DNA of 64,000 bases from Sulfolobales archaeon HS-7 (lineage in GTDB: Archaea > Thermoproteota > Thermoprotei_A > Sulfolobales > Sulfolobaceae). The DNA is taken from the NCBI GenBank assembly GCA_019704295.1, contig AP024596.1:1944501-2008500 (forward strand), given 5' to 3'. Below the pieces are notes generated by a model that saw only the letters and a list, made by a program, of their open reading frames with translations, was not told the DNA's origin and ran no database searches. The position numbers and the translations under genes are program-made. Positions 14,569 to 18,331 of this stretch are shown here, in pieces; positions within the stretch are counted from its first letter, which is position 1; the number at the start of each line of letters is the position of its first letter.

Positions 14569-15615
14569 ATGAAAGCTGGTATAGTCGGATGGGGAGCTTA
14601 CGTCCCAAGATACAGAGTAAGAGTAGCAGACATAGCTAATTTGTGGGGCATAGAGAAAACCACTGTTAAATCTCTAGGTTTACAAGAGAAGTCAGTCCCC
14701 TCTCCAGATGAGGATTCATCAACGTTGGCATGGGAAGCATCGATAAATGCTATAAGAAGGGCAAAGGTTTCACCTAAACAGATAGAAGCAGTTTTCTTTG
14801 GTTCCGAATCAAAGGTATACGCTGTTAAACCCACTGCAACAATTCTAATAGACGCGTTGGGAATAACCAATAATTCTCTAGGTGTTGACATGGAATTTGC
14901 GTGTAGAGGCGCATCAATAGGGCTTAAAACAGCATTAGCGATGACTATTTCCTCACAAACAAAGTACAGTTTGGTTGTAGGGGCTGATATAGCGCAATCT
15001 AATCCCGGTGATGTGCTCGAATTAAGTAGCGCTGCAGCAGCTGTAAGCTTTGTAACAGGTCCTGAAGGTGAATCCGCTGCTGTACTCGAGGAATCCACGT
15101 CTTTTACGAGCGATACTCCAGATTTCTGGCGTAGGGATGGTATGCCATATCCTCATCACGGTGAGGGTTTTACTGGTGAACCAGCGTACTTTTACCACAT
15201 TGAAAACGCCGTCTTGAACCTTCTTGAGAAAACTGGATTAAGGCAGTCCGATTTCGATCACGTTATATTTCATCAACCAAATGGAAAGTTTCCTATTCAA
15301 GTAGCTAGGAAACTTGGCTTCCCTATAGAGAGAACTAAGGAGGGAATGGTTGCCCCGTATATAGGAAACCCCTATAACGCTTCAGCACTTTTAGGTTTCG
15401 CAAAAGTTCTTGATATAGCTAAACCTGGGCAGCGGGTACTAGTGGTTCCTTTTGGAAGTGGAGCAGGAAGCGATGCGTTTAGTTTCCTCATAACTGATAA
15501 GATAGAGGAGAAGAAGGCCTTAGCTCCCACAACGTCCTATTACATAGACAGGAAGAGCGTAGTCGATTACGCGTTTTACGCGAAGCATACTCATAAAATA
15601 AAGGTGATAGAATGA
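14569..15615 (+). CDS. Hydroxymethylglutaryl-CoA synthase
   Basis: The 348-aa archaeal enzyme condenses acetoacetyl-CoA with acetyl-CoA to HMG-CoA, the second step of the mevalonate pathway for archaeal ether lipids. It shows the nucleophile Cys112 in [10 protein letters not shown] and His235 in [11 protein letters not shown], and ends with the family's C-terminal [17 protein letters not shown]. Length matches the archaeal family (about 350). The stop overlaps the thiolase start by 4 bases, so the genes are co-translated. Archaeal HMG-CoA synthase, thiolase and the DUF35 protein form a channelling complex, so the operon order is meaningful. Confidence 0.95.
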
Positions 15616-16712
15616 GTAAAGTTTACATAGCAGGAGCCTCAATGACGAAAGTTGATAGACATTATGATATGGGAATAAATGAGTTATATCTGGAGACATT
15701 CCAGGGCTTGAGAAATACAGTTAAAGAATGGATAAAACCAGATACGTTAATAGTGGCTAATACGTATGGAGAGGCCGTAGAGAACTCGTTAGCTCTTGGA
15801 GAAAAACTAGCGTCCACATCGTCACTACAGGGAATAAGAACTTTTCGCGTTGAGAATGGAGATGCGAGTGGAGGGGCAGCAATAGATTTAGCCTTCACGC
15901 TGGTGAAGTCTGGGGTTTCCAAAACAGTTTTGGTATCTGGGGTTGAAAAAACTTCAGACTACCCATCAAAATATATGACAGAATTTTATTCTAAAACTCT
16001 AAATAAATATGAGTTTTATAGTGGGATAAATCCCGCATCAATTGCGGCATTAATGATGAATATGTATATGAAAAAATACGGAAAAGACTCGTCCTATTTC
16101 GCAAAATGGCCAATAAGAATGCATTCAAACGCAGTAGAGAATCCATACGCTTATTTGAAATTTAAGATAGATGAAAACACTTATTACAACTCTCAAGTTA
16201 TATCGTCGCCGTTAAGGCTATTCGATTCTGGAGCTAGAGCAGACGGAGCAGCAAGTGTAATCGTAACTGACGAGGAAAATGCTAGGAAAATATCCGATTC
16301 ACCTATAGAGATATTAGGCGTATCAACATCATCCTATTGTTACCAACCTGAGTTAACACTTCCCGCTGTTAAGGACTCCTTTTCTAACGTTACCAATAAA
16401 CTGGGGGGAGTTCCTAAGATTATAGAGATTCACGATTCTTACTCCATTCTAGCAGCGCTGGTGCTAGAGTCATCCGGCTTATCAAAGTACGGTTCTTCGT
16501 TAGATGATATACCGGACGGAGTAAACTTAAGTGGTGGTCTGAAAGCAAGAGGATATCCTGGTGGCGCCACCGGAATATATCAGCTAGGTGAGATATATAT
16601 GCAGCTAGCTGGAACTTTTCCAGGAAAAAGAGAAACAGGTGAAAGCGGAGCTATAATTTCTACAGGCGAATTAGGAAGTTCCGCATATTCAGTTGTGCTG
16701 GTGAGAAAATGA
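15612..16712 (+). CDS. Acetyl-CoA acetyltransferase-like thiolase with altered active site
   Basis: The 366-aa protein is an archaeal SCP2/thiolase-type subunit in the position of acetoacetyl-CoA thiolase, which supplies HMG-CoA synthase. The fold is clear: [26 protein letters not shown] near residue 275, and [20 protein letters not shown]. Key residues differ. The nucleophilic Cys expected before ASGG (usual A-C-A-S-G-G) is Asp84 (NGDASGG), and the GHP histidine is Tyr (RGYPGGATG). His in EIHDS remains. It may be a non-catalytic scaffold of the complex or use a different mechanism. Both junctions overlap by 4 bases, so it is a fully integrated operon member. Confidence 0.85.
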
Positions 16713-17104
16713 GGCTAACACCTCCAATCTTATGGAGAAGCAAGGGGTCATTTTACCAACTTGTTGCATCAAAATGTGAAGAATGCGGTAAATTCACTTT
16801 TCCCGTACAAAGCGTATGTATGCATTGTGGCAGTAGTAAGGTAATCCAAGAAAAGTTAAGTGGAAGAGGAAAAGTAGTCTCTTTTACTGTAAATTATCAA
16901 CATAGAACGGGGTTTGAAAAGGAGATGCCCCAGATCATAGGACTAATAGAGTTGGAGGAGGGGATCACTATAACGGCTCCCATAGTTGAAGTCTCTCCCG
17001 ATGAGTTAAAGGAAGGGACTGAAGTTACTGCATGTCTTAGAAGAGCTAGAGCGGATTCCACAAACGGTTTAATACAATATATTTTTAAATTTAGGCCGGT
17101 GTAG
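16709..17104 (+). CDS. DUF35 OB-fold/Zn-ribbon protein of the thiolase-HMGCS complex
   Basis: The 131-aa protein has a rubredoxin-like zinc ribbon with C23, C26, C37 and C40 (CEECGKFTFP, CMHCG). It is followed by an OB fold (GKVVSFTVNYQHR, PQIIGLIELEEG). In archaea this protein bridges thiolase and HMG-CoA synthase and shares its CoA-binding tunnel with them, passing acetoacetyl-CoA directly. It overlaps the thiolase gene by 4 bases and is immediately followed by HMG-CoA reductase with no gap. The function comes from the family. Confidence 0.9.
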   Translation: MRLTPPILWRSKGSFYQLVASKCEECGKFTFPVQSVCMHCGSSKVIQEKLSGRGKVVSFTVNYQHRTGFEKEMPQIIGLIELEEGITITAPIVEVSPDELKEGTEVTACLRRARADSTNGLIQYIFKFRPV

Positions 17105-18331
17105 ATGGAATTAGACGAACTGTTAAAAAAATTGGAAAAAAAAGAAATTGATTTCAATAAGCTGGAGAGTTACTTAAATCCAAATGAAGCTGCTCTTCTC
17201 CGTAGGCTATTCATAGAGAAGAACAGTGGTAAAAGCTTATCCTCTATCGGTTCTACTATAATAGATTTTAAAGACGTTTATGGGAAAAACATAGAGAATC
17301 CTATAGGTGCAACTCAGATTCCGTTAGGAGTAGCCGGTCCCATCAATATTAATGGGAACTATGCAAAGGGATCATTTTACGTACCTCTTGCAACAACTGA
17401 AGGAGCTCTAGTAGCGAGCGTTAATAGAGGGATAAAGGCAGTAAATGCATCAGGGGGCGTAAACGTAATTATCATTCATGATAGTATGACACGAGCTCCA
17501 GTTTTCTCGCTTCCCTCTATTAGCTATTGCAAATTATTCATTAATTGGATTAATGAGAATTTTAGTAAAATAAAGGAAGTTGCGGAAAGCACTACTAAAT
17601 ACGGAAAGCTTAAGAGCATTGATACGTTTGTTACTGGAAACAACGTGTGGCTTAGATTCTCATTTTCTACAGGTGACGCAATGGGAATGAATATGGTAAC
17701 GTTAGCAGTGGAGAAAGCTTGCGAATATATAGAAAAAGGTTTTCCTGAAGCTAAGTGCATCGCCGTTAGCGGAAACATGTGTTCAGATAAGAAATTATCA
17801 TATGTCAACACTCTTCTTGGGAGAGGAAAGACAGTAATTGCTGAAGCAATATTACCAGGTAAGATCGTAAAAGAGTTTCTAAAATCCAGAGCAGAAGAAA
17901 TAGTAGAAACTAATCTCAGGAAGAATTGGCTGGGGAGCGCTAGAGCTGGTAGTCCCCAGTTCAACGCACATTTTGCAAACATAATTACCGCTATTTTCAT
18001 AGCAACAGGACAGGATGTAGCACAAGTGATAGAAAGTAGTAGCGGATACACATGGGCGGAAGTAAGGGAGGATAACCTTTATTTTTCCGTAACTTTGCCT
18101 TCATTAGAAGTGGGTACTGTCGGAGGAGGAACACAATTGCCTACGCAGTCCGAAGCCCTTAATTTGCTTGAGGTTAAGGGTAGCGGAAATCCGCCTGGTT
18201 CCAACTCCTTAAAATTTGCGGAAATTATAGCAGCAACTGTTCTCGCAGGAGAGTTAAATTTACTTGCGGCAATTACGTCGAGAGAACTAGGTAAGGCGCA
18301 TATGAAATATGGAAGAAAAATGAATGTTTAA
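17105..18331 (+). CDS. hmgA: HMG-CoA reductase (class I)
   Basis: The 408-aa enzyme reduces HMG-CoA to mevalonate with NADPH. Catalytic residues are visible: Glu99 in [10 protein letters not shown], the Lys of SGNMCSDKK near 224, Asp in [16 protein letters not shown], and His399 in KAHMKYGRK near the C terminus. The motif order and length fit the soluble archaeal class I form without membrane domain. It starts on the base after the DUF35 stop, closing a four-gene mevalonate operon. The hydrophilic N-terminal 45 residues are typical. Confidence 0.96.

Follow-up and report, generated by a model that had tools for sequence, protein, structure and literature searches.

Among the closest described relatives of the locus considered here are complexes that combine a thiolase or thiolase-like protein, an HMG-CoA synthase (HMGCS) or HMGCS-like protein, and a DUF35 protein. 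In the archaeal structure 6ESQ, CoA is bound by residues from all three proteins (thiolase, HMGCS, and DUF35) (PMC6392133). PhlABC is needed as a complete complex; its HMGCS-like PhlA lacks the Cys and the Glu, and its PhlC has retained the Cys (PMC6392133). The present locus lies in a stretch of 64,000 nucleotides (the window) from Sulfolobales archaeon HS-7, whose archaeal genome consists of a single contig of 2.15 Mb. It is an operon on the + strand that encodes, in order, HMGCS, a thiolase-fold protein, DUF35, and HMG-CoA reductase.

The operon and the active site of its thiolase-fold protein

The features of the operon, in window positions, are as follows.

14569..15615, + strand: HMG-CoA synthase (HMGCS), 348 aa; NCBIfam PRK04262/TIGR00748 above cut-offs
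HMGCS catalytic residues, + strand: Glu80, Cys112, and His235 present; invariant in 111 homologues, in Cys-bearing and Cys-less operons alike
15612..15615, + strand: ATGA overlap of the HMGCS stop and the thiolase start
15612..16712, + strand: pseudo-thiolase (thiolase fold without the nucleophilic Cys), 366 aa; Pfam Thiolase_N and Thiolase_C_1, AlphaFold model, fold match to 6et9_C
15852..15875, + strand: former nucleophile motif E81-N-G-D84-A-S-G-G88, with D84 at the Cys position
15861-15863, + strand: GAT codon of Asp84
16338..16340, + strand: C243, the sole Cys of the window thiolase, in an unconserved column
16431..16442, + strand: HDSY, residues 274-277, counterpart of HD(C/A)F in SCP2/archaeal thiolases; His274 and Asp275 kept
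16533..16565, + strand: GHP loop, residues 308-318; His replaced by Tyr315 (16554-16556), rest of the loop conserved
16665..16670, + strand: Gly-Glu, residues 352-353, counterpart of the Gly-Gly oxyanion loop that is invariant in Cys-bearing homologues
16709..16712, + strand: ATGA overlap of the thiolase stop and the DUF35 start
16709..17104, + strand: DUF35 (OB_ChsH2_C with zinc ribbon), 131 aa; Pfam
DUF35 zinc ligands C23, C26, C37, and C40: intact; invariant in 104 homologues, in Cys-bearing and Cys-less operons alike
17105..18331, + strand: HMG-CoA reductase, 408 aa; Pfam, and TIGR00533 above cut-off

A sequence-only reading of this DNA had described the thiolase gene as intact and joined to its neighbors by 4-base overlaps, with G-D-A-S-G-G at residues 83-88 instead of A-C-A-S-G-G and with Tyr in place of the GHP His. 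All of this is borne out: both ATGA overlaps are present, the 366-aa frame is intact, and the ORF translation together with a profile alignment places D84 opposite the catalytic Cys of the 6esq thiolase (RVEAACASG), from the Methanothermococcus thermolithotrophicus complex. In profile alignment to solved thiolases, Y315 falls on the His of GHP/GHA in 6esq and 7yvy (GHA in 6esq). An alignment of homologues, which that reading had proposed as a check, likewise gives an active site without Cys in the window's family. Beyond what had been listed there, the oxyanion-loop glycines are also altered, to Gly-Glu in the window thiolase.

An active acetyl-CoA C-acetyltransferase would be recognized by a nucleophilic Cys (CxSG), the GHP His, and scores above the NCBIfam cut-offs. 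The window thiolase has neither residue, and its scores are 222.6 bits against a cut-off of 420 for PRK06064 and 146.2 bits against 600 for AcCoTHIOL_METTL. It does belong to the thiolase superfamily by its Pfam thiolase domains and its predicted fold. The AlphaFold model has a pLDDT of 96.9, and its best fold match is 6et9_C, the thiolase chain of the M. thermolithotrophicus complex (TM 0.90, ~26% identity); no solved structure of a member of the window's family was found.

Distribution and history of the Cys loss

In the window's family (f1, which we take, from gene content and the label given earlier, to be Sulfolobaceae), an order-level search found the gene in 31/31 sampled genomes, each time in the HMGCS operon and without the Cys, and the HMGCS, thiolase, and DUF35 genes are linked in every sampled genome. 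A single-sequence search of genome contigs gave no match, and an alignment-based search returned mostly metagenome-assembled relatives. For a wider survey, HMGCS or thiolase neighborhoods were fetched across the order and the phylum. In this phylum-wide sample (n=111), HMGCS-linked thiolases are Cys-less in 84 genomes and Cys-bearing in 27. The nucleophile position holds Cys in all 39 Cys-bearing proteins; among 80 Cys-less proteins it holds Asp in 42, Glu in 24, Gly in 8, and other residues in 6, so that Asp or Glu accounts for 66/80. The observation is thus confirmed, and what had been noted in a single gene recurs across the sampled phylum. The earlier claim, confined to one operon thiolase in this genome, had the site right but was too narrow, since the trait is family-wide and was acquired repeatedly within the phylum. 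A search of the literature, with most subscription papers outside its coverage, found no report of the missing Cys.

Other catalytic elements have changed as well. The oxyanion glycines at 352-353 are Gly-Gly in 39/39 Cys-bearing homologues and mostly Asp-Asp in the window's family; the GHP His is Tyr in 24/26 aligned proteins of the family, a change nearly confined to it; and His274 is usually kept. As 20/26 aligned family members contain no Cys anywhere, a relocated Cys nucleophile is ruled out.

Gene arrangement varies elsewhere in the sample. In family f8, the copy in the HMGCS operon is Cys-less, and a second, Cys-bearing copy lies separately beside another DUF35. In family f4, HMGCS is followed directly by DUF35 in an operon without thiolase (L098-L100; an HMGR-like match comes next in L098 and L099), and the sampled Cys-bearing thiolases are located away from the HMGCS operon. 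No thiolase or DUF35 was detected beside HMGCS in L107-L109 (f7) or in L120, L186, L195, and L196 (f26), and in G302 and G307 the Cys-less thiolase is encoded away from HMGCS. Relatives of the archaeal-type thiolase also occur on contigs labelled Anaerolineae or Chloroflexota (L251, L266, L268, L270, L272, L275, and L276).

In a thiolase tree built with the active-site columns excluded, the Cys state must have changed at least 4-5 times; rooting on Cys-bearing paralogues makes Cys ancestral. Placing all Cys-less proteins in one clade is rejected by the AU test (p-AU 9.5e-5), which rules out a single ancient loss. As read from these trees, the Cys losses are independent; their exact number is uncertain because the trees are quick ones with long branches among the Cys-less rows.

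The gene shows no decay. Between close pairs of family f1 genomes, the dN/dS of the Cys-less thiolase is 0.034-0.093; that of HMGCS in the same pairs is 0.008-0.11 and usually below the thiolase's. The thiolase/HMGCS distance ratio between genomes is 1.9 for Cys-less and 1.27 for Cys-bearing operons, so that relative to HMGCS the thiolase evolves ~1.5x faster in the former, and columns conserved at >=90% number 30 in Cys-less versus 67 in Cys-bearing thiolases. Taken together, the purifying selection, the kept operon and predicted fold, and the smaller number of conserved columns suggest that the gene is needed but is less fixed than an active enzyme, a pattern that argues for a relaxation of constraint after the chemistry was lost.

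Probable role of the retained subunit and supply of acetoacetyl-CoA

The pseudo-thiolase is probably kept as a noncatalytic subunit of an HMGCS complex, with acetoacetyl-CoA made elsewhere. In this model, the protein's ancestor would be the subunit that serves as acetoacetyl-CoA thiolase in the archaeal thiolase/HMGCS/DUF35 complex, and the thiolase chemistry would since have been lost. Together with DUF35, the pseudo-thiolase would complete the shared CoA-binding site and hold HMGCS in its working form. Acetoacetyl-CoA would come from another enzyme and reach the HMGCS site from solution; in this genome the likeliest sources are the classical thiolase and two SCP2-type Cys thiolases, all encoded outside the operon. 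The noncatalytic reading is well supported by the joint loss of catalytic elements, the repeated losses, the purifying selection combined with a faster rate, and the kept fold and operon. Also in favor of the model are the intact HMGCS catalytic residues and DUF35 zinc ligands and, in f8, the pairing of the Cys-less copy with a Cys-bearing one. The earlier proposal of a noncatalytic scaffold stands in its noncatalytic part; for its other part, the solved archaeal and PhlABC complexes are the models from which we infer that the HS-7 proteins may form a complex and use the subunit as a scaffold. Some relatives have HMGCS without a neighboring thiolase or DUF35, and thus HMGCS does not need this subunit beside it in every case. 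The model is weakened by the preference for Asp/Glu, seen in several lineages that lost the Cys independently: passive decay would predict a less specific outcome, and a new role may be indicated.

The same proposal had acetoacetyl-CoA supplied by another thiolase. The window genome has three further Cys-bearing thiolases: L347, a classical thiolase (VCSSGM) whose C-terminal domain is at C1:1858764-1859129, and L149 and L150, SCP2-type Cys thiolases beside DUF35 genes. Most Cys-less genomes carry another Cys thiolase. A classical thiolase is present in 65/84 Cys-less versus 2/38 Cys-bearing genomes (Fisher p 1e-14, kinship uncorrected); on the tree, this link comes down to 3-5 independent contrasts, of which nearly all point the expected way, and significance is not reached. 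In two f5 genomes, however, G098 (99% complete) and G101 (98%), no Cys thiolase was found in any search, and the one further thiolase that they encode carries Ser in place of the nucleophile (TSGSGG; L307 1495-2655, and L308). Supply by another thiolase consequently fits the window genome and most Cys-less genomes but not these two. In L307, a DUF35-like ORF lies immediately downstream of the Ser-type gene. The window genome has a Ser-type paralogue of its own, L151 (C1:1008519-1009634; TSGSGG), related to PDB 4yzo (ST0096), and a protein like L151 is also found in G196 (L325). At L152 (C1:336422-338655) there are two adjacent Cys-less thiolase-like genes, and comparable pairs were seen in several more genomes from the phylum.

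A different route of supply would be the 4-hydroxybutyrate CO2-fixation cycle, which runs via acetoacetyl-CoA (PMC12794621; PMC7078158). If acetoacetyl-CoA were tapped from this cycle, where it is formed from crotonyl-CoA, the thiolase step would become redundant and the Cys could be lost. This idea rivals only the supply part of the model above and is compatible with a retained pseudo-thiolase. Within the HMGCS-linked set, 4-hydroxybutyryl-CoA dehydratase is found in 42 Cys-less genomes versus 1 Cys-bearing genome, and in family f9 the sole dehydratase genome whose operon was read is Cys-less, and the five Cys-bearing genomes have no dehydratase. However, the enzyme is absent from 42 other Cys-less genomes, including that of the window, and tree-controlled pairs leave at most 2-3 informative contrasts. 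As a general account the cycle is rather improbable; it explains some losses at best, and as the sole cause it was rejected, since the window genome has no dehydratase and the tree-controlled contrasts are too few. A PF11794 match in the window genome was considered and rejected as a dehydratase: it is an HpaB-type protein (L147, C1:193503-194300), ~25% identical and without the Fe-S Cys residues, located downstream of a probable ring-cleavage dioxygenase.

Other explanations give the pocket itself a function. A new catalytic role, in which Asp/Glu84 and His274 (with Tyr315 in the window's family) would perform acid-base chemistry on acyl-CoA, has precedents among Cys-less thiolase relatives, namely the aldolases Ltp2 and Sal and the very weak malonyl-CoA decarboxylation of TbSLP; Cys-less thiolase-fold aldolases with DUF35 partner domains also exist (PMC12329534). 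Such a role would fit the recurrence of Asp/Glu, independent losers included, and the conservation of His274, Asp275, and the GGLKARG loop. It is nonetheless unlikely. Ltp2 and Sal use as their base the Tyr that opens YDxx, and the window thiolase carries His there (HDSY); the oxyanion glycines are gone in the window's family, the mevalonate operon suggests no substrate, and the faster evolution with fewer conserved columns points to relaxed chemistry. Membership among the Ltp2/Sal aldolases was itself rejected for want of this Tyr, although some other Cys-less proteins do carry a YD motif. It may be suggested, tentatively, that the acidic replacement is adaptive and equips the pocket for another job within the HMGCS complex; it might, for example, gate acetoacetyl-CoA or position it for HMGCS, or sense acyl-CoA and so regulate the flux into isoprenoids. 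The strongest sign of something beyond scaffolding is the preference for Asp/Glu in independent lineages. That the protein still acts as a thiolase, through another nucleophile (e.g., Ser86 or Asp84) or by HMGCS-assisted thiolysis, is very unlikely. In the two f5 genomes where no Cys thiolase was found, acetoacetyl-CoA must arise otherwise, and Ser86 is nearly invariant; but it is equally so in Cys-bearing enzymes and is Asn in 5 members of the window's family, the GHP His and oxyanion glycines have been lost too, and the second, Ser-type thiolase of the f5 genomes (beside DUF35 in L307) is an alternative source. Finally, a decaying, functionless gene or a sequencing error, for which only the missing Cys itself would speak, is ruled out for practical purposes by the recurrence of this state throughout the family (31 genomes) and in many other genomes, by the dN/dS of 0.03-0.09, and by the intact frame with its 4-base overlaps and confident fold.

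A gene of this kind would naturally be annotated as carrying out the first step of archaeal lipid synthesis, yet in most sampled operons it is unlikely to do so; pathway models or metabolic engineering that assigned acetoacetyl-CoA synthesis to a Cys-less gene would be wrong. Furthermore, the repeated loss with retention offers a natural series in which to ask what the complex is for. Channelling as its only purpose would be useless without the first enzyme, and thus it may be a structural or regulatory role that persists.

Comparison with known systems

The M. thermolithotrophicus complex (6esq, 6et9) shares with the window the three kinds of genes, the HMGCS Cys/Glu, the DUF35 zinc site, and the thiolase fold, to which the TM score given above refers. 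Unlike its thiolase, which has Cys85, the window thiolase has no nucleophilic Cys, no GHP/GHA His, and no usual oxyanion loop. ST0096 of Sulfolobus tokodaii (4yzo) and the paralogue L151 resemble the window protein in their archaeal SCP2-type thiolase fold with no Cys at the nucleophile position, but they have Ser at the site and an intact GHP, there is no HMGCS beside the copies examined, and L151 is a separate gene. Ltp2, Sal (6ok1, 9myr), and TbSLP (5ab4-5ab7) also have a thiolase fold that lacks the N-terminal nucleophilic Cys, and Ltp2 and Sal have a DUF35 partner. In these proteins the motif is YDHF, YDCY, or YDCF, with Tyr as the base in Ltp2 and Sal, whereas the window has HDSY and a mevalonate context.

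The Friedel-Crafts acylase PhlABC of Pseudomonas protegens (PpATase; 5m3k, 5mg5) offers a further parallel, in that thiolase-like, HMGCS-like, and DUF35 proteins are combined and one condensing subunit is without catalytic residues; for the window, the corresponding complex is predicted from the genes. The roles are reversed, however. In PhlABC, the HMGCS-like PhlA is dead (Gly115 for Cys) and the thiolase-like PhlC is active (Cys88), and the window would have the opposite arrangement. Thus, the HS-7 operon would mirror PhlABC, the dead subunit being the other one.
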